From contig MGCU01000027.1 of assembly GCA_001790525.1 (NCBI GenBank), positions 1 through 44,571 on the forward strand: 44,571 nt of DNA, in the 5' to 3' direction. Each line of letters starts with the position of its first letter. The stretch's first letter is position 1. Both the position numbers and the translations under genes were made by a program. Below are positions 4,465 to 43,850 of the stretch, in pieces. The notes beneath the pieces are model-generated. The model did no database searches and was not told the origin of the DNA. It saw only the letters and a program-made list of their open reading frames with translations. Origin of the DNA: Candidatus Saccharibacteria bacterium RIFCSPHIGHO2_12_FULL_47_16b (GTDB lineage: Bacteria; Patescibacteriota; Saccharimonadia; Saccharimonadales; UBA10212).

Positions 4465-5053
4465 GGCAATTATTTTCGATTGTTTCGGGGTTTTAACCAA
4501 GGATTGGTGGCGCGAATTTTGTGCCACACTGCCCGAAGGACCGGTTTTGGAAAAAGCCAAAGAACTGAACCATCAATATGATGCCGGCCTCATTAGCCTG
4601 CAGGATTTTGTGGCAGCCGTTCATAAAATTACCGGTCGCAAACCCGAGCCAATTGAAGACATCTTTGTTAGCCCCGAGCCTATGAAAAATACCGAGCTGC
4701 TGGAATACATCAAACAATTAAAACCCAAATATAAAATCGGCATCATTAGCAACGTGGGTACCAATTGGATAAGAGATTATTTTTTGACCGAGGAGGAGCA
4801 GGCGCTATTTGACGACATGGTTTTATCATTCGAAGTTGGTACCACTAAGCCCGACCCTCGAATTTATGAGATGGCGGCCGAACGACTCGGTGTTAAGCCC
4901 GAGGAAGTTATTTTCATCGACGACCTCGAGCCGTACTGCGAAGCCGCCCGAGGCGTGGGTATGCAGTCGATTGTTTACCAAGACTTCGTACAGCTAAAAA
5001 CCGCCCTCCAAAAAATCCTAACGGATTTTCAAACTCTAAATTCGAAACCCTAG
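4457..5053 (+). CDS. HAD superfamily hydrolase
   Basis: IIFDCFGVLT motif I, ISNVGTN motif II, K(P)DPRIYE and VIFIDDLEPYCEAA. C-terminal residues run into a heptad repeat. Confidence 0.9.
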   Translation: MAKAIIFDCFGVLTKDWWREFCATLPEGPVLEKAKELNHQYDAGLISLQDFVAAVHKITGRKPEPIEDIFVSPEPMKNTELLEYIKQLKPKYKIGIISNVGTNWIRDYFLTEEEQALFDDMVLSFEVGTTKPDPRIYEMAAERLGVKPEEVIFIDDLEPYCEAARGVGMQSIVYQDFVQLKTALQKILTDFQTLNSKP

Positions 5054-5129
5054 ATCCTAAACATTTTGGAATTTGTAATTTAATACTTCGAATTTGTTTA
5101 GAGTTTAGAAATTAGAGCTTAGAGTTTTA
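5031..5129. repeat. Degenerate heptad inverted repeat
   Basis: Left arm aaactct-aaattcg-aaaccct-agatcct-aaac; right arm gtttag-agtttag-aaattag-agcttag-agtttt. Confidence 0.75.
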
Positions 5130-5366
5130 TCTGCCGGTTCGAATAATTAGTTTGCCTTTAATACCGCAGGCTTTAATAATTTTTTGTTTTTCCAGCTGAA
5201 GCGAGCCAGCCAAGGCGGAGTTTGAAACACTAACCGTTACATCGTTTTTTCTGACAGTGACACTGCATGAGCTTTGGTAACGCCGCTGGATATAATCTTT
5301 AACAGACTGAGATTCCTTGGGCGGGGTGAACTTTTTTCTGGATAAAATTTCCTGCAAACTCTCCAT
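5127..5366 (-). CDS. Small protein, possibly DUF721/DciA-like
   Basis: 79 aa; weak resemblance of VTVSVSNSALAGSLQLEKQKIIKAC to DUF721; SD aaggagg at the correct spacing on the minus strand. Confidence 0.5.
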   Translation of the reverse strand: MESLQEILSRKKFTPPKESQSVKDYIQRRYQSSCSVTVRKNDVTVSVSNSALAGSLQLEKQKIIKACGIKGKLIIRTGR

Positions 5367-5370
5367 CAGA

Positions 5371-5387
5371 CGCCTCCTTCGGAGGCG
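5371..5387 (-). promoter_or_regulatory. Hairpin containing the SD of the 79-aa ORF
   Basis: cgcctcc-ttc-ggaggcg; on the minus strand the SD (aaggagg) overlaps the loop and 3' arm, about 6 nt before the ATG. Confidence 0.65.
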
Positions 5388-5396
5388 CCGTTAACT

Positions 5397-5447
5397 ATTT
5401 TCCATAGTCCATACTCCATACATTTACCATTATCCATTAACCATTCT
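5397..5447. repeat. Degenerate heptad array, one arm
   Basis: tccatac-tccatac-atttacc-attatcc-attaacc-attctaa. Confidence 0.75.
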
Positions 5448-5543
5448 AAAGGGACAACGCTAAACTGATAAGGGTACTGTTAAGCAGTTGGTACAAGAAT
5501 TAAAGTTTTTTCACAATATAACTGGGGTGAGCTGAATAACGCA

Positions 5544-5572
5544 TTGACTTTTTAACACGCTTATGGTAGTGT
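5544..5572 (+). promoter_or_regulatory. Sigma70-type promoter
   Basis: TTGACT (5544-5549) - N17 - TAGTGT (5567-5572), upstream of ORF 5593. Confidence 0.5.
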
Positions 5573-5592
5573 AGGAATATTAATTTGCAAAA

Positions 5593-5928: not shown

Positions 5929-6013
5929 TTTCAGCTCATTAATTTGTTTTACAGAAGGAGATGCCTGAGCTGACCGTTCGACGTGCTCAGGGCGATTCTG
6001 CCATACTATTCTT

Positions 6014-6970
6014 ATGCCAGAGCTACCTGAGGTTGAAACTATTAGAATTGGGTTGGCTAAGCTTTTGCCGGGTCTTGAAATTAAAGATGTTTGGCATGAT
6101 TGGACGAAATCGTTCCCGAATGCTCCAGCTGATGTCAAAAACTTTTTAATAGGCGCAAAAGTCAAAGAAGTTAGGCGGCGAGCCAAAGTTCTAATAATAG
6201 ACTTATCGACCAAATATTCGTTGATTATTCATCTGAAAATGACCGGCCAGCTGGTTTTTGTGAGCAAAAACCAGCAGAAACTAGAAACTAGGAAAAAGAA
6301 ACTAGTAAAAAAAGCTAATTCCCAATTCCTAATTCCTAATTCCTCTGAAGCGGGACGCTTCGGTGGTGGGCATCCAACAGATTCGCTAATTGGCAAATTA
6401 CCAGACAAATCAACGCGCGTAATTTTGACTTTTAAGGACGGCAGGAGATTGTTTTTTAATGATCAGCGTAAATTCGGCTGGATGCGATTGTTACCAACCT
6501 TAGAAATTCCAGAGATTGATTTTATGAAAAAGGTCGGCCCAGAGCCACTGGAAGATGATTTTACACTCAAAGTTTTTGTCGAGAGACTTAAACGTCGCCA
6601 AAATAGTTCAATTAAAGCCGCCCTTTTAGACCAATCAGTCCTAGCTGGCGTTGGCAACATTTATGCCGATGAATCGTTATGGGCAGCCAAAATTCATCCG
6701 ACTATCCCTGTTAAACAAGTTTCGCGATCAAAACTAGCCAACTTATATGAAGCCATTCCAACGATTCTGTGCCTAGCTATTGAAGCCGGCGGCAGTACCG
6801 ATAGAAACTACTTGGACGCCCAAGGTAAAAAGGGAAGTTACTTAAGCCTTGCCAAAGCTTTTCGCAAAGAAGGTGTACCTTGCCCCCGCTGCGGTACAAT
6901 TATTGAGAAGATTCGCGTGGCCGGTCGCGGCACCCACATCTGCCCCAAATGTCAGAAATTGACAAAATAG
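6014..6970 (+). CDS. mutM: Formamidopyrimidine-DNA glycosylase
   Basis: MPELPEVETIRIGL N-terminus, LLDQSVLAGVGNIYADE helix-two-turn-helix, C-terminal zinc finger CPRCGTIIEKIRVAGRGTHICPKCQ. Confidence 0.97.
   Translation: MPELPEVETIRIGLAKLLPGLEIKDVWHDWTKSFPNAPADVKNFLIGAKVKEVRRRAKVLIIDLSTKYSLIIHLKMTGQLVFVSKNQQKLETRKKKLVKKANSQFLIPNSSEAGRFGGGHPTDSLIGKLPDKSTRVILTFKDGRRLFFNDQRKFGWMRLLPTLEIPEIDFMKKVGPEPLEDDFTLKVFVERLKRRQNSSIKAALLDQSVLAGVGNIYADESLWAAKIHPTIPVKQVSRSKLANLYEAIPTILCLAIEAGGSTDRNYLDAQGKKGSYLSLAKAFRKEGVPCPRCGTIIEKIRVAGRGTHICPKCQKLTK
6250..6361. repeat. Composite hairpin-heptad IR-hairpin insertion inside fpg
   Basis: gctggtttttg-tgag-caaaaaccagc (6250-6275); gaaacta-gaaacta-ggaaaaa-gaaacta then aattccc-aattcct-aattcct-aattcct; gaagcg-gga-cgcttc (6347-6361). 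Confidence 0.85.
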
Positions 6971-6987: not shown

Positions 6988-7011
6988 AGCCTCTGTTAAC
7001 TACAAACAAAA

Positions 7012-9639: not shown

Positions 9640-9790
9640 AGAGTGGCTAAATTAATCTAATTAACCTAATTTCTAATTGACCTAAATAATGACCAAATAA
9701 CTTAATATCCAAACTTTGGGATTTAGAACTTAGGATTTGTTTAGAATAATTAGTGCAATTAGGAATTAGAAATTTACTGTTGTAAAACAG
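9640..9790. repeat. Degenerate heptad inverted repeat
   Basis: attaacc-taatttc-taattga-cctaaat... then ...agaactt-aggattt-gtttaga...aggaatt-agaaatt. Confidence 0.7.
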
Positions 9791-9865
9791 TTGTGTTTAT
9801 GGTACATTTGAGGCCAGAAGTCACCTCACAAAAACTTCTTAAATAAAAATAAAAATGCAAAGAAC

Positions 9866-9994
9866 GTTTACCGTTCACCGTTCACCGTTCACCATGCGTG
9901 AACCGTTTTCCGTTATCCGTTATCAACAGTTAATGGCTAATGGTAAAAGCGCGGAAAATGGTAAACGGCCAATGGTAAATGGCGCCGGAGGCGC
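9866..9994. repeat. Degenerate heptad inverted repeat ending in an SD-bearing hairpin
   Basis: accgttc-accgttc-accgttc-accatgcg...aatggta-aacggcc-aatggta-aatggcg then gcgcc-gga-ggcgc (9982-9994) with ggagg before ATG 9998. Confidence 0.85.
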
Positions 9995-11410
9995 GTGATG
10001 GAACCGGCAGCGGCGCAGACCCAGGCAGTAGAGCGCATTAATCAAGCGTCTAATATTTTAGTGACGGTTAGTTCTAATCCGTCAGTTGATCAATTGGCGG
10101 CCTGCATTGGCCTGACTTTGCTCTTAAACCGTATGGACAAGCACGCCACGGCGGTTTTTTCCGGCCGGGTGCCATCGACCATCGAATTTTTGCAGCCGGA
10201 GAAAACACTTGAAGCCAACACCGACAGCCTACGCGATTTTATAATTTCGCTCGATAAAAATAAGGCCGACAAACTGCGCTACAAAGTCGAAGACCAGTTC
10301 GTTCGGATTTTTATTACCCCTTATAAAACCAGTTTAAGTGAAAAAGACCTGGTCTTTAGCCAAGGCGATTTTAATGTTGAGGCTGTAATTGCCCTCGGCG
10401 TTCATAATCGCAACGAACTTGATGCCGCCATTACCGCCCACGGCCGGATTTTGCATGATGCCACAGTCATTTCGGTAGTGGCCGGCAAAAGCCAGGCGCC
10501 GGACCTTGGTCAAATTAACTGGATTGATCCGGCGGCTAGCAGTCTATGTGAGATGTTGGTAACCATGGGCGACTCTTTTGGCCAAAACCTGATTGATAAT
10601 CAGATGGCCACGGCTTTCTTGACCGGTATAGTGGCCGAGACTAACCGCTTTAGTAATGATAAAACCACGCCAAAAGCCATGAGCGTCAGTGCTAAATTAA
10701 TGGGCGCCGGTGCCAATCAACAATTGATTATCAGTAAACTGGAACCGCCAGATGAATCAACCGGCAGCCGCCAACCACAACCTAAAAGACCGCCATCGCC
10801 GCCGCCTCAAACTAAGGGTGTCTTGAGCGTTTCGCACCATCCGGAAGTGGCCGACACGTCAGAAGTTGAGGTTAACTCGGGTGAGATTCGGATAGACGAG
10901 CAGGGCAATATTATCGGCAGTTCTGGTCAACCTTCACGACCAACCCCGCAAGCTAGAAAAGCTCTGCCGGACATGCCAACCTTTCAACCAATGGCTAAGC
11001 CAGCCGATGACAGTTCAGGCCCTACCGGGCCACACGATCTGCTTGATCCCACGCAGCATGTGCCGGCGATTAGCCCGCCTTTTACGGCCGACACCCAACC
11101 GGCTTGGACAACTAATCAACAGGCTATGAATGATCCCTTAATCGACGGTCCGAGCGCCGAAGATAAGCTTATTAAAAGAGCCGAAGAGCCGGCGCCAACG
11201 GTTACAGCTCCGCCGCCCGCCGACCAAGCCAGAAAGGCCGTTAATCAGGCGATTGCGGCGGCGCCGTTTGATCCGTCCGGACATCCGCTGGCATCGATGG
11301 GAGCTAAGCCGCTAACTGGTGATTTACACCCTCCGCAACTGCCAAAAATTCCGGGTACTGCACCACCGCCGGTCCCACCACCACTCCTACCAAAAAACAA
11401 TAAACAATAA
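9995..11410 (+). CDS. DHH-family phosphoesterase-like protein with degenerate motifs and a Pro-rich tail
   Basis: Fold-like similarity (ILVTVSSNPSVDQLAACIGLTLLL... / ATAFLTGIVAETNRFSN) but canonical DHH/DHHA motifs not seen; C-terminal low-complexity tail. Confidence 0.6.
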   Translation: MMEPAAAQTQAVERINQASNILVTVSSNPSVDQLAACIGLTLLLNRMDKHATAVFSGRVPSTIEFLQPEKTLEANTDSLRDFIISLDKNKADKLRYKVEDQFVRIFITPYKTSLSEKDLVFSQGDFNVEAVIALGVHNRNELDAAITAHGRILHDATVISVVAGKSQAPDLGQINWIDPAASSLCEMLVTMGDSFGQNLIDNQMATAFLTGIVAETNRFSNDKTTPKAMSVSAKLMGAGANQQLIISKLEPPDESTGSRQPQPKRPPSPPPQTKGVLSVSHHPEVADTSEVEVNSGEIRIDEQGNIIGSSGQPSRPTPQARKALPDMPTFQPMAKPADDSSGPTGPHDLLDPTQHVPAISPPFTADTQPAWTTNQQAMNDPLIDGPSAEDKLIKRAEEPAPTVTAPPPADQARKAVNQAIAAAPFDPSGHPLASMGAKPLTGDLHPPQLPKIPGTAPPPVPPPLLPKNNKQ

Positions 11411-11461
11411 ACAAAAAACATTCCGCAGCGCTTGCTTATTGCTAATTGTTGATTGATTATT
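11394..11461. repeat. Degenerate heptad inverted repeat
   Basis: aacaata-aacaata-aacaaaa-aac ... gcttatt-gctaatt-gttgatt-gattatt. Confidence 0.75.
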
Positions 11462-12202
11462 CTTCACATGGATGGCATATTGCTGATTGATAAACCGAAG
11501 GGTTGGACGTCGCATGATGTTGTCGCAAAAGTCCGTGGACTTTTGCGACAGTCAGTTAGTCATCAGTCTCTAGTCACTAGTGACAAGCGACTAAAGACTC
11601 GCGCACCGAAGGTGCGAGTCGGGCACGCCGGCACGCTTGATCCGGCAGCCACCGGCTTACTAATTCTGGTTATTGGCAGTTATACCAAACGGGCGGCCGA
11701 GTTTTTGAAACTCGATAAAGTTTATGATTGCGAGCTGACTCTCGGCGCAGTCAGCACGACCGGTGACGTTGAAGGCAAAATAACAAAAGTAGGGGATAGG
11801 GGTAAGGGGATAGGGTTTAGAGAACCGACTAGAAAAGAAGTAGATAAAGTCTTGAAATCGTTTGTGGGGGAAATCAGACAGGTGCCACCGGCTTACAGTG
11901 CCATTAAAATTAAGGGTCAAGCAGCCTATAAATTAGCCCGAGCCGGCAGGGAACTAAAAATGGAGCCGCGGGTGGTGACGATTTATAAGATTGAAAATAT
12001 GGATTTTCAATATCCGAAATTGAGCTTTACGACAAAAGTAAGCAGTGGAACATACATCCGCTCACTGGCTTCTGACATCGGCGCCAATCTTGGTACCGGC
12101 GCCTATTTATCTGGTTTAAGACGTACAAAAATCGGAAACTACTCCATTAGAGGATCACAATCATTGACAAGTATAGGAGTAAATGATATAATTCGAATAT
12201 GA
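11453..12202 (+). CDS. truB: tRNA pseudouridine(55) synthase (start probably ATG 11468)
   Basis: MDGILLIDKPKGWTSHDVVAKVRGLL...VGHAGTLDPAATGLLIL...QVPPAYSAIKIKGQAAYKLARAG; insertion between VRGLL and VGHAGTLDP. Confidence 0.96.
   Translation: MIILHMDGILLIDKPKGWTSHDVVAKVRGLLRQSVSHQSLVTSDKRLKTRAPKVRVGHAGTLDPAATGLLILVIGSYTKRAAEFLKLDKVYDCELTLGAVSTTGDVEGKITKVGDRGKGIGFREPTRKEVDKVLKSFVGEIRQVPPAYSAIKIKGQAAYKLARAGRELKMEPRVVTIYKIENMDFQYPKLSFTTKVSSGTYIRSLASDIGANLGTGAYLSGLRRTKIGNYSIRGSQSLTSIGVNDIIRI
11521..11620. repeat. Composite hairpin-heptad IR-hairpin insertion inside truB
   Basis: tgtcgcaaaagtcc-gt-ggacttttgcgaca (11521-11550); agtcagt-tagtcat-cagtctc-tagtcac-tagtgac-aagcgac-taaagac; hairpin cgcacc-gaa-ggtgcg (11602-11616). 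Confidence 0.88.
11789..11822. repeat. Single-arm heptad array inside truB
   Basis: tagggga-taggggt-aagggga-tagggtt-tag, translated as VGDRGKGIGF. Confidence 0.65.
12164..12192 (+). promoter_or_regulatory. Perfect consensus sigma70 promoter inside the truB 3' end
   Basis: TTGACA (12164-12169) - N17 - TATAAT (12187-12192); ATG of the next ORF at 12199. Confidence 0.85.
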
Positions 12203-12732: not shown

Positions 12733-12866
12733 GAAATCCTAAATCCTAAACTCTAAATCCTAAACAAGTTCTAAGCTCGAAATTCGAATAATAACGTTTG
12801 GGATTTGGAAAATTAGAATTTAAAAATTGTTTCGGATTTCGTACTTAGATATTAGAAATTTAATAT
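12733..12866. repeat. Degenerate heptad inverted repeat
   Basis: aaatcct-aaatcct-aaactct-aaatcct-aaac ... gggattt-ggaaaattagaattt...ttagatattagaaattt. Confidence 0.7.
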
Positions 12867-12918
12867 TTGGGTGATAGAGCACAGTCCGCTATAAGCGGGT
12901 TGAACCTTGTCACCCAAA
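12866..12918 (+). promoter_or_regulatory. Stem-loop in the pnp leader
   Basis: tttgggtga (12866-12874) / tcacccaaa (12910-12918) with internal ccgct-ata-agcgg; ends 4 nt before the GTG at 12923. Confidence 0.7.
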
Positions 12919-15101: not shown

Positions 15102-15198
15102 TCGCTGCGAAGTCCCGCACCAAATCCTGAGCAGAGAAGAGAGGGAATACCTCTATTTCGGAGCGTCAAGATTTTGGTGCGTGGAAAAGCGGCAGCGA
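15102..15198. other. Nested stem-loop intergenic element / candidate structured RNA
   Basis: tcgctgc/gcagcga (15102-15108/15192-15198), cgcaccaaatc/gattttggtgcg (15116-15126/15170-15181), agagg-gaata-cctct. Confidence 0.6.
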
Positions 15199-15219: not shown

Positions 15220-15450
15220 ATGATGATAAGGAGCGGAAAAATGGTTAATCAAGTCGAGCAGAAATTTTTACGTAGCTGGCAGGGTGAAGTAGTTCAACTG
15301 CTAATCTTTGCCATTTTAGCTTACGCGCTTATCTCGCTAGCTCTGGATTCGGCTAGAACAATTGCCTATATAGCCGGTATTGTCTTTTTGGTTTTGGCTA
15401 TCAAAAATTTAATAAGACTTATTAAGAGGTTCGTCCTTGGAAAAAGATAG
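15220..15450 (+). CDS. Small membrane protein, 76 aa
   Basis: Two hydrophobic segments. Confidence 0.6.
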   Translation: MMIRSGKMVNQVEQKFLRSWQGEVVQLLIFAILAYALISLALDSARTIAYIAGIVFLVLAIKNLIRLIKRFVLGKR

Positions 15451-15573
15451 GAAAAATCGTTCACGAGGGACAACCTTGGAAAATGCAAAGAGATTTTTTG
15501 TAAAATCACAAGATTTTTCCAAACATTTCCCAAGGTTGTACCTCGAAAGTTGGCTTTTTCAAAGACGAACCTC
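15426..15573. repeat. Nested palindromic element (ccttgg family), copy 1
   Basis: Outer gaggttcgtccttggaaaaag / ctttttcaaagacgaacctc; inner cgagggacaaccttggaaaatg / catttcccaaggttgtacctcg. Confidence 0.85.
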
Positions 15574-15589
15574 ACAAAGAACCTCAAAA

Positions 15590-16288
15590 ATGGCTAAAGT
15601 TTCTAAAAAAGACTTACTCGAAAAAATAAAGGCCGATATCATCAAAGATAAGGTTTGTCCGGAGTTGGCGACCAGTGCTAAGAAGCTGGTATTTGGCGAT
15701 GGTAGTGCCGATGCCGAAGTTGTTTTTATAGGCGAAGCACCGGGTCAAAAAGAAGATGAGCAAGGTCTGCCGTTTGTCGGCGCCGCCGGCCAATTTCTAA
15801 ATGAACTGCTGGATAGCATCGACTTAAAGCGCGCCGATGTCTATATTACTAATATCGTCAAGTACCGCCCGCCCAATAACCGTGATCCTTATCCCGATGA
15901 AAAGGCTGCCTTCTTACCATATTTACATGCCCAATTGGAGGCGATTAAGCCGAAGTTGATTATTGCGCTCGGCCGCCATAGCCTGGAGGTCTTGGTGCCG
16001 GGATTGAAAATCAGCCAATGCCACGGCCAGCCAAAACGAGTTAGAATTATGAATCAAGAAGTAAGAAGTAAGAGCGGCGAGCAGGACATCACGTCCTTGG
16101 TGATCCTACCACTGTTTCATCCGGCGGCGGCCTTATACAACGGCGGCATGCGCCAGACATTGATTGATGATTTCAAAAAAATCCCGAAGGTTTTGGAAGA
16201 AATTTCCAACCTAGCCCAGCCGCCGGAAATTGCTAAGCCAGCCTGGCGGCCAAATCGTCAACCGGCCGACAACCGGCTGCCGTTATAA
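15590..16288 (+). CDS. Uracil-DNA glycosylase, family 4/5-like (ORF track start 15437 reads through the palindromic element)
   Basis: VFIGEAPGQKEDEQGLPFVGAAGQFLNELL, TNIVKYRPPNNRDP, PLFHPAAALYN. Confidence 0.92.
   Translation: MAKVSKKDLLEKIKADIIKDKVCPELATSAKKLVFGDGSADAEVVFIGEAPGQKEDEQGLPFVGAAGQFLNELLDSIDLKRADVYITNIVKYRPPNNRDPYPDEKAAFLPYLHAQLEAIKPKLIIALGRHSLEVLVPGLKISQCHGQPKRVRIMNQEVRSKSGEQDITSLVILPLFHPAAALYNGGMRQTLIDDFKKIPKVLEEISNLAQPPEIAKPAWRPNRQPADNRLPL
16041..16073. repeat. Single-arm heptad array inside the UDG gene
   Basis: attatga-atcaaga-agtaaga-agtaaga, translated as RIMNQEVRSKS between conserved blocks. Confidence 0.55.
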
Positions 16289-23543: not shown

Positions 23544-23615
23544 ATAGGGGATAGGGGCTAGGGTATAGGGTACAGAAGATTGACCTAAACCCTCACCCCT
23601 CGACCCTCAACCCTA
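23544..23615. repeat. Degenerate heptad inverted repeat
   Basis: ataggggataggggctagggtatagggt ... acctaaaccctcacccctcgaccctcaaccct. Confidence 0.78.
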
Positions 23616-23640
23616 AGTTCGACTGAAAGGAGAACGATAA

Positions 23641-23844: not shown

Positions 23845-23957
23845 TAAAGCAATTTTTAATTCACAATTTACAATTCTCAATAAATTATCAATTTACAATT
23901 ATCAATGTAGCTACATGGAAAACGGTAAACGTATGGTAAACGGTAAACAGAAAACGG
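23845..23957. repeat. Degenerate heptad inverted repeat with atgtagctacat core
   Basis: ttcacaa-tttacaa-ttctcaa ... core 23905-23916 ... tggaaaacggtaaacg... Confidence 0.75.
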
Positions 23958-23963
23958 GAATAC

Positions 23964-33019: not shown

Positions 33020-33021
33020 CA

Positions 33022-33145
33022 TCCGTTTACGGTTTACAGTTTACCGTTCACCATGCGTTTACCATGATCTGTTTACATTGAAAACGGAAAACTTAAAGAC
33101 GTATTGAAAACTGAAAATGGAAAATTGTAAATTACTGGTGTTAAT
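33022..33145. repeat. Degenerate heptad array / inverted repeat
   Basis: gtttacg-gtttaca-gtttacc-gttcacc-atgcg ... gaaaacg-gaaaact ... tgaaaac-tgaaaat-ggaaaat-tgtaaat. Confidence 0.72.
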
Positions 33146-33176: not shown

Positions 33177-34217
33177 ATGGCTTTTTTCAGTGGTGGGCGA
33201 TCCGACTTTTTTGGCCTGGATATTGGCACCTTTGGCCTCCGTGCCGTTCAACTAAAAGGCCCTGGACCGATAAAAACCCTAGATCGCTACGGCGAAATAA
33301 CTTTGGATAGCACTGTTGGCACTGGCTACGACGTGGTTGATAAACAAGGCTTTACTCAAGCCTTGCAAAGACTGGTTAAACAGACGGGGATTACCGCCAA
33401 AAACGTGGCTGTTAACATTCCATCCCAAAGGGTTTTTACGACCATTATTGATCTTCCAAAAATGCTCCCGGCCGAACTTGATAAAACCATCCACTATCAG
33501 GCTGGTTCGTATATTCCGACGCCGCCGGATAAATCTAAAGTTGACTTTGCCGTAATTGGTAATTCACCGCAAGCCGGCAAAGTCGAAGTGCTTATCACCA
33601 GTGCGCCAAATGATTTTATAGAATCCCGCCTGGCGTTAGTTGAGGCCGCCGGCTTAAACGTCATCGCAATGGAGCCGGATAACATGGCCTTAGCCCGGGC
33701 GATTGTGGCGGCCGATGCCACTTTACCGCAGCTGGTTTTAGACGTTGGCAGTGTTAGCGCCGATTTGATTATCAGTTTTGGTGGCACGCCGCATTTAGTG
33801 CGGGCCATCCCTACGGGCATGCAAAACATCGCCCGGGCGGCCAGCCAAAATCTGGGGGTTGATGCCCGGCAAGCCCAGCAGTATGTGCTTAAGTTTGGAC
33901 TGGGCAAAGATAAGCTGGAAGGTCGGGTTTATGCGGCCATCATCGGTGTTATCGATGGCCTAGCCGGCGAAATTGAAAAATCGATTAAATTTTTTGCCGA
34001 ACGTTATGGCAATACCAAACTGGACAGAATTATCGTTACCGGCGGAGCCTCAACTTTGCCGGAGCTACCGCTTTACATTGCCAACAAATTCGGTATTAAT
34101 GTAGAAATTGGTAATGCTTGGCGTAACGTTAACGTGCCGCCGCCGCAGCAAAATCAGACCATGGTGGTTTCCAGCCACTTTGCGGTCGCCGTCGGCTTAG
34201 CCGGAAGGATGGAATAA
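33177..34217 (+). CDS. pilM: Type IV pilus assembly protein PilM
   Basis: FFGLDIGTFGLRAVQLKG, LVLDVGSVSADLIISFGG, IIVTGGASTLPELPLYI. Confidence 0.95.
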   Translation: MAFFSGGRSDFFGLDIGTFGLRAVQLKGPGPIKTLDRYGEITLDSTVGTGYDVVDKQGFTQALQRLVKQTGITAKNVAVNIPSQRVFTTIIDLPKMLPAELDKTIHYQAGSYIPTPPDKSKVDFAVIGNSPQAGKVEVLITSAPNDFIESRLALVEAAGLNVIAMEPDNMALARAIVAADATLPQLVLDVGSVSADLIISFGGTPHLVRAIPTGMQNIARAASQNLGVDARQAQQYVLKFGLGKDKLEGRVYAAIIGVIDGLAGEIEKSIKFFAERYGNTKLDRIIVTGGASTLPELPLYIANKFGINVEIGNAWRNVNVPPPQQNQTMVVSSHFAVAVGLAGRME

Positions 34218-34335
34218 TGACTACGTCATTTCAATTTCTAATTTCTAAACCCGAAATCCTAAACAAATTCCAAGTGCTAAATCATAAATTCCAAACATTA
34301 GAGTTTCGAGTTTCGAGCTTAGAGTTTAAAGTGAC
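34217..34335. repeat. Hairpin plus degenerate heptad inverted repeat
   Basis: atgac-tac-gtcat (34217-34229), then ttctaatttctaaacccgaaatcctaaac ... ttagagtttcgagtttcgagcttagagttt. Confidence 0.75.
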
Positions 34336-34347
34336 TGAAAGGAACGC

Positions 34348-35052
34348 TTGATGGTGCCAAGAGCCCAATTTAACCTACTGCCAGATATCAAGCAGACCGG
34401 CGTCAAGTTGGAAAGAAGCCGTCGGCTGTTGACTAGTGGGGTGTTGCTAGTAAGTCTAATTTCGGCCGCTATTTTTGTCTTGTTGCTGCTAACGGTTTAC
34501 GGCATCCAGAAGAAACAATTATCCGATGCCGATAAATCAATTACTAGTTACAGTCAGCAGCTAGCTAACACCGAAAATCTAGACAGAATTTTGACTGTTC
34601 AAAATCAACTGGCCACGTTATCTGGCTTGCATCAGAACAAACACGCCGTCTCACGCATTTTTGCCTATATGCCGGATATTACGCCCAGCAATGTTTCCTT
34701 AAGCAATTTATCGCTCGATCTAGCGGCCAATACCATCCAAATTGACGGTACAGCCGATTCGCAAAAATCGGTTAATACATTCGTGGATACTTTAAAGTTC
34801 ACCACCTATAGCCTAGGTTCTGATGATGGCGGCCAAAAGGCCTTTCCATCGGTAGTCTTAAGCAGTTTTGGCATCGGCGAGGGTAAAGCCAGCTTTTCGG
34901 TAAATGTAACTTTTAATCCGATCCTATTTAGCAGCAATGCGGTTGATAGTAGCGGCGCCAATGTCACACCCAAGTTAAGCGTCCCTAAACAGACTTCCAA
35001 CCGGTCAGCGCTTGACGATCCATTATTTACCGGACAAGGTGGAGGTCAATGA
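34348..35052 (+). CDS. pilN: PilN-like type IV pilus assembly protein
   Basis: FNLLPDIKQTGVKLERSRR, single TM, position between pilM and pilO. Confidence 0.8.
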   Translation: MMVPRAQFNLLPDIKQTGVKLERSRRLLTSGVLLVSLISAAIFVLLLLTVYGIQKKQLSDADKSITSYSQQLANTENLDRILTVQNQLATLSGLHQNKHAVSRIFAYMPDITPSNVSLSNLSLDLAANTIQIDGTADSQKSVNTFVDTLKFTTYSLGSDDGGQKAFPSVVLSSFGIGEGKASFSVNVTFNPILFSSNAVDSSGANVTPKLSVPKQTSNRSALDDPLFTGQGGGQ

Positions 35053-35729
35053 TGAAAGCTAAATTCGATTTTAAAAAGCTCAATCTGGACCGCGGTCAGA
35101 CCCGCATGCTGGTAACAATAACAGTTGCCGCCGCCGTGACGGTCTTTTGTTTACTATCAGCTAAAGCCCTATGGAGTCAGGCGGCATATCATCGTCAGGT
35201 ACTATCCGCCAAAAGACAAGCCGTTGCTCAACTTAAGGCCAACATTGATACGGTCGAAACCTTAAAAACCCAGTACGATGCATTTAATTCGGCTAACCCT
35301 AATGCTATCGGCGGCAAGAATGTGTCTGATGCTAACGCCACGCCACCGGATGGCACTAATAGTCAGGTGGTGCTTAATGCTTTGCCGAGTAAATACGACT
35401 TTCCGGCTCTAATTTCATCGGTTGCCAAGGTAATGTCGCTTAATCGGATTGGCAATCCGGGGATTGCCGGCTCTGACCAATCGGCCACCATTAACAGCCA
35501 GCCAACCGCCAATCCGCAGCCGGTTGAAATACCATTGAGCCTAAGCGGATTGACAACCTATTCAGGTGCTCAAAATCTGGTGCGTGATTTGGAACGCTCG
35601 ATTCGGCCATTTGATATCACTAAACTGCAGCTGTCCGGTTCCAGCGCCAGCCTGTCGGTTTCGGCTAGTGTGACAACCTACTTCCAGCCGGCTAAAATTT
35701 TAAGTGCCGGCAATAAGGAGATCAAGTAA
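35049..35729 (+). CDS. pilO: PilO-like type IV pilus assembly protein
   Basis: Single TM followed by coiled-coil region; syntenic with pilMN; ATG overlaps pilN. Confidence 0.75.
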   Translation: MMKAKFDFKKLNLDRGQTRMLVTITVAAAVTVFCLLSAKALWSQAAYHRQVLSAKRQAVAQLKANIDTVETLKTQYDAFNSANPNAIGGKNVSDANATPPDGTNSQVVLNALPSKYDFPALISSVAKVMSLNRIGNPGIAGSDQSATINSQPTANPQPVEIPLSLSGLTTYSGAQNLVRDLERSIRPFDITKLQLSGSSASLSVSASVTTYFQPAKILSAGNKEIK

Positions 35730-35966
35730 TGACGAAGTCATTACAATTATCAATTTTCAATTATCCCCACACCAAAAACTTGAAGCTTCGTAATCTGATT
35801 GCAGACTACTCCGCTCAGGTTTTGGTACGGGGCAAGCAATTTTCAATGAATGATCAATTATCAATGATCAATGTAGCTACATTAATAAAAAGTAAATTGC
35901 TAACTGTAAATTTACTGAAAACTGAAAACTGTAAACTGAAAACTGGAGCGACCGAAGGGAGCGACT
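35729..35966. repeat. Hairpin plus degenerate heptad repeat with atgtagctacat core
   Basis: atgac-gaa-gtcat; caattat-caatttt-caattat; core 35871-35882; tgaaaac-tgaaaac-tgtaaac-tgaaaac-tgg; ends in agcgaccgaagggagcgact. Confidence 0.75.
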
Positions 35967-35967
35967 T

Positions 35968-36228
35968 ATGAAGCGACGAGATGTGATTTTGATAAGCTCG
36001 GCTGCTTTAATCGCCGCCACTATTGCCTTGGCGGTTTCTAACCTAGTCTTTAATGCGCCGTCATCGCGCAGCCAAGTGCCGGTGATTGAAAAAATTAATC
36101 CTAACTTCCCGGATGTTAAAAATGATTCCGCCTACAGCAGTTTCCTTAACCGTAATGCCCTTGACCCAACCCAGCCAATTCAAATCGGTAACACCAAAAA
36201 TACTTCACCGTTCAACCCAAGCCAATAG
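35968..36228 (+). CDS. Small membrane-anchored protein in the pil operon (pilP position)
   Basis: N-terminal TM, 86 aa, between pilO and pilB. Confidence 0.65.
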   Translation: MKRRDVILISSAALIAATIALAVSNLVFNAPSSRSQVPVIEKINPNFPDVKNDSAYSSFLNRNALDPTQPIQIGNTKNTSPFNPSQ

Positions 36229-36371
36229 GTGATGAATTTATCATTTACCAATTCACAATTACCAATTAAGTATCATTTGTCATTTACCAGAAGTTTTGAT
36301 GAATGGCTAATGGTAAATAATTTGGCTAATGGAAAATGGAAAATGGTTAATGCGACTCCGAATGGAGGCGC
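36229..36371. repeat. Degenerate heptad inverted repeat ending in an SD-bearing hairpin
   Basis: atttatcatttaccaattcacaattacc... / aatggct-aatggta...tggaaaa-tggaaaa-tggttaa; hairpin gcgactcc-gaat-ggaggcgc (36352-36371) before ATG 36375. Confidence 0.8.
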
Positions 36372-36374
36372 CTG

Positions 36375-38153
36375 ATGTCAATTCTTTCGCCTGAAACACA
36401 AGTTAAGGTCGAAGAAACATTGGTTTCTGATGGCTTGCTGACCCAACCCGAGCTTGAGCAACTCAAAGATAAAGCCGCTCGGGCCAAGCAGCCGATCCTA
36501 GCCTATTTAATCGATTCTGGCCGGATAACTGATGAACAGCTGGCCAAAGCCTTGGCCGAGGTTAATAGCTTGCCTTATGTTAATCTCTCCAGCATCCATG
36601 TTAACGAAAAAACCTTGAGCCTACTGCCTAAAGATATCGGCCAGCAGTACATGGCTGTACCAATTGGCGAAATGCAAAATTATTTAGTCGTGGCCATGTT
36701 GGACGCCGACAATCTTCAGGCCGTAGATTTTTTGTCTTCTAAGATCGGCCGCCCCATCAAAGCCTATGCCGCTAGCGAATCGGGCATTCGACGGGTCTTA
36801 GAACAATACGGCAAACTCGGCTTGCAGCACGGCTTAACCTCGATGCTGGAAATTGAGCCGACCGGTGCTGCCAAGACCGAGAAGCCGACAAGCGCTGATA
36901 AGGTTCAAACTATCGTCCAGGATTCGCCCATCAGCCGGGCGCTCAATGCCATCATGGAATACGCTGTTAACAACAATGCCAGCGATGTCCACGTTGAATC
37001 GCTGGAACACGAGCTAAAAATCCGCTGCCGGGTAGACGGTGTCATGCGCGAAATCATGCGCCTGCCAAAAAACACCGAGGCGCCGCTAGTGTCGCGCATA
37101 AAAATCCTATCCAATTTAAAGATTGATGAGCACCGCATTCCCCAAGACGGCCAATTTACCATCAAAGTAGCCGGTAAAGAAATTGATTTGAGGATCGCCA
37201 TCAGCCCGGTAGTCTGGGGTGAACAGGTGGTGCTGCGCTTACTCGATAAATCCGATACCGCTCTTCAGCTTGATGAAATGGGCTATAACGGCCGGGCGCT
37301 TCGAATGGTTAAAAAAGCTCTGGCTCAACCACACGGCATGATTTTGACCTCCGGGCCGACCGGTTCTGGCAAAACTACCAGCATGTACGCCATGATTCAG
37401 ACCATCAAAAACGACACCATTAACATCGTCACGCTGGAAGACCCGGTCGAATACAAAATCGAAGGTGTTAACCAAATCCAGATAAATCCCGATATCGGCC
37501 TGACTTTTGCATCCGGCCTGCGTTCGGTCCTGCGCCAGGATCCGGATGTGGTGATGGTTGGCGAAATCAGAGACAAGGAAGCGGCCAATTTGGCCGTCCA
37601 GGCGGCCTTAACCGGACACTTAGTCTTTAGCACTTTGCATACCAACTCGGCCGCCGGCATTCTGCCGCGCTTACTCGATATGGCGATTGAGCCGTTCTTA
37701 ATTGCCTCAACCGTCAGAACTGTTATTGGCCAGCGCTTAGTACGTAAGGTAATCCCCGGCGACGCTTATCAGTCAAGTCCGGCCGAGACTTTAGCTATCA
37801 AAAATACCATCGGCACAATTTTGCCCAAATCCCCGGCCGAGGTAGCTAAGATTGGTGCTGATCTTGGCTATCAGAACTTGCCACTGGCAACGCAAAACGC
37901 TTATACTTTGGTTAAGCCCAAGCCAACGCCCGATAGCCCAACCGGCTACAAAGGGCGAATGGGGCTTTATGAGGTTTTTGAGGTAACCGAAGCCATGCAG
38001 GAAGTAATTGTCAAACGTCCGACTACCACTATGATTCATAAAGTTGCCCAATCCCAGGGTATGATTACCATGAAGCAGGACGGCTATCTTAAGGCGCTGG
38101 CCGGGCTAACAACCGTTATGGAAGTAAATCGGGTGGCTAGCGCCGACAGCTAA
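36375..38153 (+). CDS. pilB: Type IV pilus assembly ATPase PilB/GspE
   Basis: MILTSGPTGSGKTTSMYAMI, VTLEDPVEYKIEGVNQIQ, LRQDPDVVMVGEIRDKEAA, HTNSAAGILPRLLDM; N-terminal T2SSE_N. Confidence 0.97.
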   Translation: MSILSPETQVKVEETLVSDGLLTQPELEQLKDKAARAKQPILAYLIDSGRITDEQLAKALAEVNSLPYVNLSSIHVNEKTLSLLPKDIGQQYMAVPIGEMQNYLVVAMLDADNLQAVDFLSSKIGRPIKAYAASESGIRRVLEQYGKLGLQHGLTSMLEIEPTGAAKTEKPTSADKVQTIVQDSPISRALNAIMEYAVNNNASDVHVESLEHELKIRCRVDGVMREIMRLPKNTEAPLVSRIKILSNLKIDEHRIPQDGQFTIKVAGKEIDLRIAISPVVWGEQVVLRLLDKSDTALQLDEMGYNGRALRMVKKALAQPHGMILTSGPTGSGKTTSMYAMIQTIKNDTINIVTLEDPVEYKIEGVNQIQINPDIGLTFASGLRSVLRQDPDVVMVGEIRDKEAANLAVQAALTGHLVFSTLHTNSAAGILPRLLDMAIEPFLIASTVRTVIGQRLVRKVIPGDAYQSSPAETLAIKNTIGTILPKSPAEVAKIGADLGYQNLPLATQNAYTLVKPKPTPDSPTGYKGRMGLYEVFEVTEAMQEVIVKRPTTTMIHKVAQSQGMITMKQDGYLKALAGLTTVMEVNRVASADS

Positions 38154-38155
38154 AA

Positions 38156-38270
38156 ATGATTCATTACATTCATCATCAGGGTCAAGGGTCAAGGGTCGAG
38201 GGGTTAGATTGTAGCGAACTACACCCTACACCCTATCCCCTAAACCCTAAAGCGACCGAAGGGAGCGACT
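38156..38270. repeat. Degenerate heptad inverted repeat
   Basis: gggtcaa-gggtcaa-gggtcga-ggggtta ... tgtagcgaactaca ... accctac-accctat-cccctaa-accctaa, then agcgaccgaagggagcgact. Confidence 0.85.
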
Positions 38271-38275
38271 AGGGG

Positions 38276-39352: not shown

Positions 39353-39367
39353 AAATGCTAAGCATTT

Positions 39368-39452
39368 TTACGAATTACGAATTACGAATTAAGAATTATG
39401 AGGCTGACATACTTCATACTTCATTATTCATACTTCTGCAACCGGAGGTTGC
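39368..39452. repeat. Degenerate heptad inverted repeat ending in an SD-bearing hairpin
   Basis: aattacg-aattacg-aattaag-aattatg ... tacttca-tacttca-ttattca-tacttct then gcaacc-gga-ggttgc (39438-39452), ATG 39456. Confidence 0.82.
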
Positions 39453-39455
39453 TTG

Positions 39456-40670
39456 ATGCAGAGCTTTACCTACACCGCCCGCAATCTAAGAACAGGCGAA
39501 AAAATAACTGCCGCTGTCGAGGCCGAAGACGAGGCCGCTGCCGCCCGCCTGCTAACCGAGCGTGGTCTGGCCCCTCTAGAAATTACCCCCAAAAAAGAAG
39601 AGGGTTTGCGGTCATTTTTCAATCGGATTCCAGCCAAACACATGGTGGTCTTTTCCCGCCAGCTATCGACTTTAGTTAATGCCGGTTTGCCGCTGGTGCA
39701 AAGCCTGGAGGCGGTTCGTAAACAAACCGCCAATAAACAGCTCAAACCAACTATTGCCAAAATTATTAATGATGTGGAGGCCGGTTCCAACTTGGCCGAG
39801 GCCATGGCCGCTCATCCCCGCGTTTTTAACGACGTTTATACCAGTTTGATTGCCGCCGGCGAGGCCTCTGGAACGTTAGACGTTTCCTTGGAACGACTGG
39901 CCAACCAGCAGGAAAAAGATTCAGAAATAGTTTCGCGCCTGCGCGGCGCCATGCTTTATCCAATGCTGGTCATTATTGTCTTAGTCGGCGTGGTGGTCTT
40001 TTTGATGACTTCTGTTTTACCACAAGTTGAAAGTCTATATGCCGGCTTGCCAAACGTTCAACTGCCAGTTGTGACTAAGTTTCTGCTGGCTATCACTCAT
40101 TTTCTGTTAAATTTCTGGTGGTTGATAATTTTGGTTTTTGGTGGCGGTATTTTCCTACTTGTACGTTGGGTCCGCACCCGTCCGGGACGGCTGGTGTACG
40201 ACCGGTTTAAAATGCGGGCGCCGGCCATCGGGCCGCTGTTTATGAAGCTTTACATGGCTCGGTTTTCGCGCGTGTCAGCTACCCTAGTAGCTAGCGGCGT
40301 GCCGCTTATTCAAGTCTTAAACACCTCTGCCAAATCAATTGGTAATCTTCACGTTGAGGCCGCCATTTTGCGCGCCGCCGAAGCCGTCAAAGGCGGCAAA
40401 ACCCTTAGCGAAAGCTTAACCGATGAGCGCTATTTTTTGGAACTGGTGCCCAACATGGTCCGCACCGGCGAACAATCCGGCTCACTCGATACAATGCTGG
40501 CTAAACTAGCCGACTATTATGAGAAAGAAGTTGATAATCAGATTAAAACCATTGCTACGGTAATTGAACCAGTGCTGATGATTACGGTCGGTATCATTGC
40601 TCTGATAATCGTGGCCGCCGTGCTGCTGCCAATTTATTCACTGGCCGGCAAGAACTTCATCAAACTATAA
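39456..40670 (+). CDS. pilC: Type IV pilus inner-membrane platform protein PilC/GspF (ORF track start 39453 is a TTG codon directly before this ATG)
   Basis: MQSFTYTARNLRTGEKITAAVEAEDEAAAARLLTERGLAPLEI; LSTLVNAGLPLVQSLEAV; two T2SSF repeats. Confidence 0.96.
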   Translation: MQSFTYTARNLRTGEKITAAVEAEDEAAAARLLTERGLAPLEITPKKEEGLRSFFNRIPAKHMVVFSRQLSTLVNAGLPLVQSLEAVRKQTANKQLKPTIAKIINDVEAGSNLAEAMAAHPRVFNDVYTSLIAAGEASGTLDVSLERLANQQEKDSEIVSRLRGAMLYPMLVIIVLVGVVVFLMTSVLPQVESLYAGLPNVQLPVVTKFLLAITHFLLNFWWLIILVFGGGIFLLVRWVRTRPGRLVYDRFKMRAPAIGPLFMKLYMARFSRVSATLVASGVPLIQVLNTSAKSIGNLHVEAAILRAAEAVKGGKTLSESLTDERYFLELVPNMVRTGEQSGSLDTMLAKLADYYEKEVDNQIKTIATVIEPVLMITVGIIALIIVAAVLLPIYSLAGKNFIKL

Positions 40671-41282: not shown

Positions 41283-41398
41283 ATATAGCAATTAGAAAAT
41301 AGCAAGTAGCAATTAGTAACTGGAAAATAGGAAAAAGACCCTAGGACTATAGGTCGCTAGTTCCTATTTCCTAATTACTAGTTACTGGCAGGCGTGCT
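41283..41398. repeat. Degenerate heptad inverted repeat
   Basis: atagcaattagaaaatagcaagtagcaattagtaactggaaaatagg ... ttcctat-ttcctaa-ttactag-ttactgg. Confidence 0.78.
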
Positions 41399-41404
41399 AG
41401 CATA

Positions 41405-42301
41405 ATGATAATGATTTTAACTCTTGTAGTTCTAGCCTGCCTGGGGCTTTGTTTGGGCAGTTTTGTCAATGCAGTTGTCTGGAGAACCAGACAGCAGTCA
41501 CTAGTCACTAGTCGCCAGTCATCAGTTAAAAAAACAAATTCGAGAAGACTAAGCACTGAAGACTCAAGACTAGCAACTAAAAATAACCAGCTATCCATTT
41601 TGAAGGGCAGAAGTGTATGCCCAAATTGCTTGCATGAGCTTGCGCCAAGAGACCTTATACCAGTTTTTAGCTGGTTATTTTTGCGGGGGCGCTGCCGCTA
41701 CTGCCATAAACCGATTTCCAAGCAATATCCAATCGTCGAACTAACGATGGCAGCCGTTTTTGTATCATCGTATATTTTATGGCCGCAAGATTTTAGCGGG
41801 GCCGGGCAGTGGCTTTTGTTTAGCACTTGGCTGGCTACCAGCGTTGGCTTGCTGGCACTGGCGGTCTACGACTGGCGCTGGCTGCTACTGCCAAACAAAG
41901 TGGTCTACCCAACTTTCCTCGTTGCGGCTGCCGGCCGGGCAATTTATATTGTTGGTTATGCGCCGGATAAACTGTCGGCTTTGCTTAATTGGGCTGGCGC
42001 CATCGCCGTAACCAGCGGTCTTTTTTACTTAATTTACAATCTGTCCGACAAATACATTGGCGGCGGCGATATTACGCTCGGTCTGGTCACCGGTACGATA
42101 TTAGCCACGCCGTTTAAAGCTGTTTTGATGATATTTTTTGCATCAATTCTGGGAACTTTATTTGCCTTGCCGGGTTTAATTAGTAAGAGCAGGGGATTTC
42201 AAAGCAAAATTCCTTACGGACCGTTTTTAATAGCCGCAACTTTTATCGTGCTCCTTTTTGGGCCGGCCATCACCGACTGGTACGAACAACTACTCACGTA
42301 G
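41405..42301 (+). CDS. pilD: Prepilin peptidase
   Basis: CLGSFVNAVVWR, CPNCLHELAPRDLIPVFSWLFLRGRCRYCHKPISKQYPIVEL, VYDWRWLLLPN, YIGGGDITLGL. Confidence 0.95.
   Translation: MIMILTLVVLACLGLCLGSFVNAVVWRTRQQSLVTSRQSSVKKTNSRRLSTEDSRLATKNNQLSILKGRSVCPNCLHELAPRDLIPVFSWLFLRGRCRYCHKPISKQYPIVELTMAAVFVSSYILWPQDFSGAGQWLLFSTWLATSVGLLALAVYDWRWLLLPNKVVYPTFLVAAAGRAIYIVGYAPDKLSALLNWAGAIAVTSGLFYLIYNLSDKYIGGGDITLGLVTGTILATPFKAVLMIFFASILGTLFALPGLISKSRGFQSKIPYGPFLIAATFIVLLFGPAITDWYEQLLT
41470..41593. repeat. Composite hairpin-heptad IR insertion inside pilD
   Basis: gttgtctgg-agaa-ccagacagc; agcagtc-actagtc-actagtc-gccagtc-atcagtt; gaagact-aagcact-gaagact-caagact-agcaact; aaaaataaccagcta (41579-41593) inverted at 41668-41682. 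Confidence 0.88.
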
Positions 42302-42394
42302 TTGTAGTCTCTAGTAACTAGTTGCTAGTATATCCTTAACTAGTGACTAACGACTAGTGACTAGGGGTACAACTCCGGTCGGAGTTGTACCCCT
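42301..42394. repeat. Heptad inverted repeat followed by a perfect 14-bp-arm hairpin
   Basis: agtctct-agtaact-agttgct-agta ... taactagtgactaacgactagtgacta; aggggtacaactcc-ggtc-ggagttgtacccct (42363-42394). Confidence 0.85.
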
Positions 42395-42411
42395 TATGCT
42401 ATACTTTAGCC

Positions 42412-43224
42412 ATGATTTCCAGGTGGGGCGGTTACACCGTGATAGAAGTGCTAATCGTACTGGCCATTTCAGGCGTCATTTTTGTCAGCGGGGTGGTGAT
42501 GTTTAGCGGTCAAAGCAACTCCACTGCCTTTGAGCAAAGTATGCAGGACGCTAACTCCGAGATAACCACTCGGTTGCGCGGGGTTGGCTCCAGCCAGTTC
42601 TTTAATAGCGAAGGATACATATGTGTGGTTAGCGGCAATCCAGCCAGAGCCATTCTTTCGCCAGGCACTGGTAGCAGTACCGGCAACCAAGATTGTCTGG
42701 TGGTTGGCACGGCTGTCGAAGCGCCGACGAGTGACAGCCGCCTGTATTTTTTTCAGGTTCTTGGTAACCGCCAGGTTTATAGCGCTGGCAACAATCCGGT
42801 CGGGCTAGCAACTAACTTAACCGAATCCAACCCGACGATTGCTTTTTCGGACGATGCCGATCTAACCTTTTCTTACAAATTAGCCAGTGACGTCAAAATA
42901 ATTTCTTCTAATGTCGAGGCCATTGATGGCTCGAGCTTAGCCAGCAGCCTGGTTGGTTTCTACATCGATTTCAATGGCGAAGCGCCAGTTGGCCAAAATG
43001 GGTCGCAGACCGCGCAGGCCAAAGCCTACAATTATCAAACGGCCGGCCATGACGCTAGCGCCGCTAACAGTTGCATTGAGGGAACTACTTGCCAACCACC
43101 GGCTGATGCCAAAGTTTGGAAAATCTGTTTTGAGAGCCCCTCCGGCAATCGCCGAGCCGAAATTGACATCGCCAACCAACCGGCCGGTGTCACCACTGAA
43201 CTTAAATTCATAAATTGCACATGA
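42412..43224 (+). CDS. Pilin-like protein (start revised from 42385)
   Basis: MISRWGG|YTVIEVLIVLAISGVIFVSGVVMFSG; TATACT -10 at 42400-42405. Confidence 0.82.
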   Translation: MISRWGGYTVIEVLIVLAISGVIFVSGVVMFSGQSNSTAFEQSMQDANSEITTRLRGVGSSQFFNSEGYICVVSGNPARAILSPGTGSSTGNQDCLVVGTAVEAPTSDSRLYFFQVLGNRQVYSAGNNPVGLATNLTESNPTIAFSDDADLTFSYKLASDVKIISSNVEAIDGSSLASSLVGFYIDFNGEAPVGQNGSQTAQAKAYNYQTAGHDASAANSCIEGTTCQPPADAKVWKICFESPSGNRRAEIDIANQPAGVTTELKFINCT

Positions 43225-43236
43225 GTAGTTTTATGG

Positions 43237-43377
43237 GAGATCCGACCTTGGAAAAAGCAACTCACATTACAAGGACCGTCCTTGTAAAAAGTCATGTAAA
43301 ACTTAGTAGTTTTTATAAAAAAACACCTTGCTTTTTACAAGGACGGTCCTTGATGGGTGGGTCCAAGGTCGGATCTC
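43237..43377. repeat. Nested palindromic element (ccttgg family), copy 2
   Basis: Outer gagatccgaccttgg/ccaaggtcggatctc (perfect 15 bp); inner caaggaccgtccttgtaaaaag/ctttttacaaggacggtccttg (perfect 22 bp). Confidence 0.92.
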
Positions 43378-43805
43378 ATCGGGGGAGTCGCGGCGATACC
43401 ATTATTGAAGTAATGCTTAGTATCGTTTTGATCGGCTCGGCGGTAGCTTTAGCCGTATCGATGTCTAACCATAACCTCAATATCGGCATTGGCACGACCC
43501 AGCGCAGCCAGGCCCTATCCATTACTCAAGGCCAAATCGAACGCATCCGCAATGCCTATATCAATAATGACCCGGTGCTTAATAGCTATAAATCCAACCA
43601 GCCTTATTGCATATTGGGCGATGGCAGTACGGCCGAGGTCGACGCCCAAGATTCAAAATGCGCCGGCCTAAATGGCAGTCAGTACACGGTGTCTGTGGTC
43701 TATAGTGACGCCACCAAAATATTCACTGCCACAACTACTTGGATCTCCAATGCCAGCGGCAGCGGTCAGGACGAACTAAAACTATCTTATAAACTACCGG
43801 GCTAA
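43353..43805 (+). CDS. Pilin-like protein (start revised from 43215; exact start uncertain)
   Basis: MGGSKVGSHRGSRGDTIIEVMLSIVLIGSAVALAVSMSN prepilin-like N-terminus. Confidence 0.75.
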   Translation: MGGSKVGSHRGSRGDTIIEVMLSIVLIGSAVALAVSMSNHNLNIGIGTTQRSQALSITQGQIERIRNAYINNDPVLNSYKSNQPYCILGDGSTAEVDAQDSKCAGLNGSQYTVSVVYSDATKIFTATTTWISNASGSGQDELKLSYKLPG

Positions 43806-43850
43806 GGGAAGAAGCATGAATTATGAAGTATGAATTAAGAAGCAAGAAGC
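43806..43850. repeat. Single-arm heptad array overlapping a pilin start
   Basis: gaattat-gaagtat-gaattaa-gaagcaa-gaagcaa-gcc. Confidence 0.7.

Follow-up and report, generated by a model that had tools for sequence, protein, structure and literature searches.

The window examined here is the whole 44,571-nucleotide stretch of contig 27 of a 793,886-bp draft genome of the Saccharimonadales, that of Candidatus Saccharibacteria bacterium RIFCSPHIGHO2_12_FULL_47_16b (hereafter G0, also G000); relatives of its PilT likewise put it in Candidatus Saccharibacteria, order Saccharimonadales. This genome contains well over a hundred dispersed hairpins, approximately 100–240 bp in length, whose arms are formed of degenerate heptamers. 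Judged from sequence comparison, these are probably non-autonomous palindromic elements that are kept in tight operons as translational-coupling linkers. Copies in operons start with ATG or GTG at the stop codon of the upstream gene, often behind a native Shine-Dalgarno (SD) motif, have a frame that is open throughout, possess an SD motif at their 3′ end and usually close in a stop codon overlapping the next start (ATGA, TGATG). An earlier sequence-only reading of the window had described the repeats as a class with a 7-nt period and inverted arms; that the operonic copies are predicted open reading frames (ORFs) with overlapping start and stop codons goes beyond it, as does the finding that the degeneracy of the heptamer words partly follows the reading frame.

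Predicted mini-cistrons at tight operon junctions

The genome used for comparison, RIFCSPHIGHO2_12_FULL_47_17 (G1, also G001; 740,612 bp read), is the only congener of G0 in the sample, with a median protein identity of 81% between the two. Both are incomplete drafts and their genes were called with a simple ORF/hexamer caller. Codirectional gaps were sorted by the length of the gap in G1 (≤20, 21–60 and >60 bp) and were counted as ORF-spanned if an open frame crossed the whole element, with shuffled gaps as control. An open frame spans 27 of the 29 heptad insertions with a G1 gap of ≤20 bp (shuffled, 19%) and all four with a gap of 21–60 bp. Above 60 bp the count is 13 of 37 (shuffled, 8%), and long gaps without arrays gave 10 of 67. 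The open frame depends on context and is no requirement for elements in long gaps.

Across the 51 open elements of G0, the start lies at −4 or within −1 to +5 nt of the upstream stop in 46 cases, and in 35 the stop overlaps the next start by 1 or 4 nt, an arrangement known from coupled gene pairs (PMC6728339). An SD-like motif is found before the left start in 36/51 and before the right start in 41/51, compared with 36% of all called starts. The elements total 6,996 nt and have 0, 207, and 231 stops by frame; the 207 and 231 outside the ORF frame indicate that the sequences are not open by default. The choice of words also varies with phase: of 21 ATTGT, 16 fall in the phase of a would-be stop, as do 9 of 12 TTCGA and 20 of 37 CGAA, whereas ATTGA (40 cases) and TTAGA (37 cases) never do. 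Eight in-phase CTAA are most likely terminal stops included in the count. Stop avoidance partly explains the heptamer degeneracy. The reading frame was ruled out as the cause of the 7-nt period itself, as lag-7 identity is alike in open (0.492) and non-open (0.482) gaps.

The same behaviour is seen elsewhere in the order at the pilT-pilC junction, where the gap in 79 relatives is usually 0–16 bp. Fourteen of these carry an insert of at least 75 bp and in 13 an ORF runs from the pilT stop to the pilC start, the exception being L100, in which the frame breaks early. The words of the inserts differ among lineages, and those of L104, L153, L143, and L107 have no clear 7-nt period and are still ORF-spanned, so that the rule concerns insertion into coupled junctions generally. 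G006 also has a heptad element at this junction, open by hand reading.

Could the mini-ORFs instead encode functional small peptides, as a mobile gene family with selection acting on the peptide? The 51 open elements do group into seven alignable peptide families with 11 singletons, and the pooled ratio of nonsynonymous to synonymous substitution (dN/dS) ranges from 0.57 to 0.92, being lowest in families 1 and 2. However, this ratio is near neutral in several families, openness of the frame varies with the gap, and unrelated words and inserts occupy the pilT-pilC junction in different lineages. Such a role is considered unlikely, and the peptide seems secondary. A little less likely again is that the hairpins are mainly RNA structures, for processing, stability or attenuation between cistrons, with their open frames incidental. 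Folding of the 51 open elements gave a mean z-score of −1.9 (below −2 in 47%), many of them forming long hairpins with helices interrupted at approximately heptad intervals, and a small hairpin at the 3′ end often contains the SD motif. Yet RNA structures need no open frame, while tight junctions are open far more often than long gaps, and the word variants track the reading frame. An Rfam search of the window gave nothing above the gathering score and two weak sub-threshold matches only.

Several points weigh against the elements being coupling linkers. Sixteen of the 51 ORFs are without a 1- or 4-nt terminal overlap, and two of the 29 copies at tight junctions failed the test for an open frame. 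The gap-length classes were fixed after examples had been seen, the gene caller is crude, and a single congener at the protein identity given blurs the insertion junctions. The dN/dS below 1 leaves room for some peptide constraint. The zero stop count of the ORF frame is by construction.

Period, inverted arms and dispersal

Arrays were scored at lag 7 with a threshold of ≥12, or of ≥11 where stated. The 125 kb of intergenic DNA of the whole G0 genome yielded 135 lag-7 segments against approximately 1.0 in dinucleotide shuffles, confirming that the period is real. Other tested lags gave 1–10 segments each, with the exception of multiples of seven (72 at lag 14 and 8 at lag 21); the single segment that recurs as background whatever the lag probably reflects a run of N. 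The inverted layout held up likewise: array pairs within 120 bp had a mean reverse-complement word similarity of 0.612 (0.461 in random pairs), and the reverse complement outscored the direct match in 44 of 53 neighbouring pairs. At a score of ≥11 there are 216 arrays genome-wide, among which are 95 consensus words. Arrays are present in 99 of 477 codirectional gaps (21%), 19 of 93 divergent gaps (20%) and 6 of 89 convergent gaps (7%). Coding DNA of G0 holds 26 segments, all within called genes and only part of them compared with empty homologues; some may be ordinary low-complexity coding sequence, for example the rpsT tail at 9303.

Even these two congeners differ strongly in copy number, with 177 arrays in G0 and 51 in G1. 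Comparison of 386 syntenic gaps, the orthologous-gap check put forward with the sequence-only reading, found arrays only in G0 in 77, only in G1 in 10, in both in 20 and in neither in 279. Many filled junctions stand opposite near-empty ones with clean boundaries, such as the pilM-pilN gap (130 bp in G0, 0 in G1). At pilT-pilC, G0 has a GAATTAC element and G1 an ATTTACC element, the latter a homolog of the G0 element at 36229. The element at 33025 is common to both genomes and is thus older. Copies at separate loci align across the whole element, with common non-heptad breaks and ends. The presence/absence split and clean filled/empty junctions indicate dispersed mobile hairpins. The words had been taken as specific to each locus under one shared rule. 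The dispersed class with its 7-nt period and inverted arms stands, but the words are family-specific, and homologous elements sit at different junctions in G0 and G1; they are better read as families with turnover.

An origin by local slippage, separate at each place and without mobility, as for short tandemly repeated repetitive (STRR) sequences, would account for tandem 7-nt units of variable copy number and for the many consensus words. It would not lead one to expect inverted arms, filled and empty junctions alternate, and homologous copies with shared breaks and ends were found at unlinked loci, making this explanation very improbable.

With regard to features typical of miniature inverted-repeat transposable elements (MITEs), there are dispersed homologous copies with filled and empty sites. 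The elements are palindromic overall, with exact end motifs such as TGACTGCGTCA and GCGACTGAAAGGAGCG found in only 2–6 copies, too few to set the termini. In a search by eye for a target-site duplication, nothing but the start codon recurred consistently on the two sides of an element; the G1-only element opposite G0 C24:3870 has a possible 9-nt repeat (GTGAGATCC/ATGCGTTCG) that was not seen at other elements.

Resident REP-associated Y1 transposases (RAYTs; REP, repetitive extragenic palindrome) were considered as the mobiliser, which would make the elements relatives of REPINs. G0 has three Y1_Tnp genes and G1 has one, and among 30 relatives arrays lie near pilT in 8 of 11 Y1 carriers and 4 of 19 others (Fisher p = 0.009, phylogeny uncorrected and loci unequal in length). 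However, the palindromes that flank the Y1 genes are of other types, the surroundings of 20 Y1 loci held a single weak array (AAAAACC), and G015, G046, and G031 have arrays without a Y1 match. The candidate was set aside as correlated across relatives and not physically linked to the heptad elements, and it retains a minor probability. The three genes of G000 (C26:1504-1743, C2:6805-7026, C25:24830-25060) each have their own short flanking palindromes (GCAAGGCCGAGCCTTGC, CAAGGACCGTCCTTG, CCAAGGAGCCTCCTTGG). AAGGACCGTCCTT occurs in 11 copies in G0 and in none in G1.

Synthesis of heptamers by a reverse transcriptase or a telomerase-like enzyme was also rejected, as neither of the two incomplete drafts, G000 and G001, gave an RVT_1 match. 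RVT_1 matches do occur in two relatives, G046 (C3:90777-91199) and G010 (C41:8006-8703 and C23:3424-4142, in pieces). A plasmid or annotated phage source was sought for family 1 and no match was found.

When family 1 was used as a query among 380 genomes (E ≤ 1e-8), no other sampled genome of the order matched, and 13 distant Patescibacteria genomes did. In those distant matches that were read, the inverted layout is kept with a common CTAAACAAATTC-like break, and most show no evident ORF across the element. With the element at 36229 as query, matches were confined to its own genome. Similar inverted heptads are present in gene gaps of IMG/VR contigs. Contig L268 has two such elements, with adjoining ORFs that resemble virion genes by reading only, and in L291 a short frame apparently begins 2 nt past one stop and ends over the next start (hand reading). 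In contigs L275 and L277 one heptad element occurs 3–4 times per contig, in gaps next to start codons, and has an additional ACGAGCG-type heptad arm. It is possible, as a tentative extension, that heptad-armed palindromes form a broad mobile class of several bacterial lineages and phages which hosts have recruited in large numbers as operon linkers. As seven is prime to three, a word repeated at this period shifts through all three frames, so that a few substitutions per element would open a frame anywhere.

Elements of the window

The window was found to hold 26 arrays at approximately 22 loci, in good agreement with the 23 or so first reported. They lie at 5.1–16.1, 23.0–24.0, and 33.0–43.9 kb, with none at 16.1–23.0 or 24.0–33.0 kb, and the clustering into blocks was therefore borne out. 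That most operonic gaps are occupied is correct for the type IV pilus block (33–44 kb) but does not extend to the genome, given the share of codirectional gaps above. Some loci are inside genes (mutM, truB, pilD) and not in gaps, and the locus at 5031 is partly coding. The elements are as follows.

5031–5127 (unstranded): AATCCTA-class (family 1 type) inverted repeat, array at 5096–5127 by TRF and lag-7, containing and supplying the stop codon of gene 4457–5053 (sequence read).
5368–5445 (minus): TCCATAC/CATTAAC arm with SD hairpin GGCGCCTCCGAAGGAGGCG beside a minus-strand ATG; no clear second arm (sequence read).
6263–6345 (plus): inverted heptad pair AGAAACT / AATTCCT inside gene 6014–6970, which is mutM-like by reading and whose G1 match begins only at residue 143 (sequence read).
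9640–9775 (unstranded): degenerate family 1 type element in the rpsT-DHH divergent gap; absent from G1.
9855–9998 (plus): GTTCACC-class, 47-aa ORF MQRTFTV..., TGATG over the DHH gene start; absent from G1.
11388–11452 (plus): CAATAAA / TTATTG array, DHH gene to truB.
11545–11625 (plus): AGTCACT-class in-frame insertion in truB, approximately 15 aa relative to G1.
11786–11825 (plus): TAGGGGA-class in-frame insertion in truB, 7 aa relative to G1.
12734–12876 (plus): family 1 type inverted element, rpsO-pnp; long gap, no spanning ORF.
16044–16075 (plus): GAAGTAA array inside gene 15437–16288.
23544–23640 (plus): TAGGGGA / CCTCAAC inverted; junction tight in G1 and yet not open, one of the two exceptions.
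23850–23963 (plus): AATTCAC / AAACGGT; absent from G1 (11-bp gap); no spanning ORF by eye.
33020–33140 (plus): GTTTACC / TGAAAAT; orthologous in G1; no spanning ORF.
34217–34351 (plus): family 1 mini-cistron MTTSFQFLISK..., ending TGATG; gap of 130 bp, 0 in G1.
35729–35971 (plus): 80-aa mini-cistron ending ATGA; gap of 238 bp, 0 in G1; nested palindrome at 35765–35833.
36229–36375 (plus): ATTTACC / AATGGAA mini-cistron MNLSFTN... (36232–36375), ending TGATG; gap of 146 bp, 13 in G1; homolog at G1 pilT-pilC.
38156–38272 (plus): AGGGTCA / CTAAACC mini-cistron MIHYIHH..., pilB-like gene to pilT, ending 3 nt before a GTG start; gap of 122 bp, 13 in G1.
39355–39456 (plus): GAATTAC / CATACTT mini-cistron MLSIFTN..., pilT-pilC gap, ending TGATG; SD in hairpin GCAACCGGAGGTTGC.
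41283–41404 (plus): TAGCAAT / CTAGTTA inverted; no spanning ORF; gap long in G1 too.
41488–41600 (plus): AGTCACT-class in-frame insertion in the pilD prepilin peptidase gene, approximately 31 aa relative to G1.
42302–42363 (plus): ACTAGTG-class array, then hairpin ACAACTCCGGTCGGAGTTGT.
43806–43853 (plus): GAAGTAT/AAGAAGC array at the 5′ end of gene 43823–44482; G1 has a different heptad element.

Another family of palindromes (CCGCACCAAAACCTGAGCGGAG...CTTCAAGTTTTTGGTGTGGGG) was observed at 35765–35833 and approximately 15113–15185 of the window and at C5:17599, C23:48897, and C9:3654-4022. Several heptad elements hold a member of it in frame (those at C5:17599, C23:48897, and 35765–35833), in either orientation, the last being inverted by reading. 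Long hairpins with CAAGGACCGTCCTTG- or CCAAGGTTGT-type ends lie in or near the 5′ end of genes at 43237–43377 and 15466–15543; these are apparently REPIN-like and are the source of the sole Rfam matches.

Proposed mechanism and comparison with known systems

The two arms of 7-nt units would allow one strand to fold into a long hairpin of short helices, and we infer that copies have spread to new sites by movement, driven by a putative mobilising enzyme. Insertion at a stop/start junction would separate the downstream gene from ribosomes leaving the upstream gene, and the insertions retained may be those that work as a linker cistron. In such copies the left start is at the old junction, and the right end of the element provides a new SD motif, often in a small hairpin, and a new stop usually overlapping the downstream start by 1 or 4 nt. 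If the linker is translated, the downstream gene could then be reached by coupling, through termination-reinitiation or translation-dependent opening of the hairpin. Where a gap is long and probably untranslated, copies would be free of the open-frame constraint. Polarity due to Rho was rejected as the reason for the open frames: its RNA-binding domain (PF07497) had no match in G000, G001, G012, or G046, compared with matches in 9 of 14 control genomes, and ribosome coupling is consequently the likelier constraint.

Seen in this light, the elements may serve as a natural experiment on the reason for abutting genes in prokaryotic operons, DNA forced between coupled genes surviving as a translatable bridge, and the filled/empty pairs would be a ready set for testing coupling. 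They also suggest a route by which mobile DNA could give rise to new small ORFs, tens of them in each genome of a streamlined lineage, with the warning that hypothetical proteins of this sort may be linkers and not functional peptides.

No described family with inverted heptad arms was found in the open-access literature searched, in keeping with the sequence-only reading, although a description outside it is possible. The STRR sequences of cyanobacteria, which had been named as a precedent, are a precedent for the tandem 7-nt period only. The arrays here do not follow a pattern of one set word repeated directly with no inverted arm opposite, having many words and mostly reverse-complementary neighbours. 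The TAACTGA repeats of the Beggiatoaceae are also intergenic 7-nt units, often located just upstream of start codons, and consist of essentially one fixed word with 169 direct sets to one indirect (PMC4679880), in contrast to the many words in inverted arms of the Saccharimonadales elements.

Rickettsia palindromic elements (RPEs) are palindromic repeats of approximately 150 bp kept in frame within genes (PMC10969869). The in-frame copies in PilD and TruB resemble these, but RPEs are described as inserted within ORFs, while most of the copies studied here are separate intergenic mini-cistrons, and by the descriptions the heptad arms, SD motif and overlapping stops set them apart. The enterobacterial repeats RU-1, RU-2, and RU-3 are MITE-like, 103–168 bp in length and mostly intergenic, some having ORFs maintained in genes (PMC2759123). 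These and other bacterial MITEs differ in having no 7-nt period, and their ORFs form fusions and not linker cistrons. REP/REPIN systems with RAYTs are likewise dispersed palindromic repeats, and Y1 transposases are present in G0; however, the heptad elements do not flank the Y1 genes, and the REPs there are separate palindromes. In translationally coupled overlapping pairs (ATGA/TGATG, termination-reinitiation) the SD motif lies inside the upstream ORF (PMC6728339). The stop/start overlaps of the heptad elements are of the same kind, with the difference that the upstream partner is a repeat-derived linker and not a host gene.

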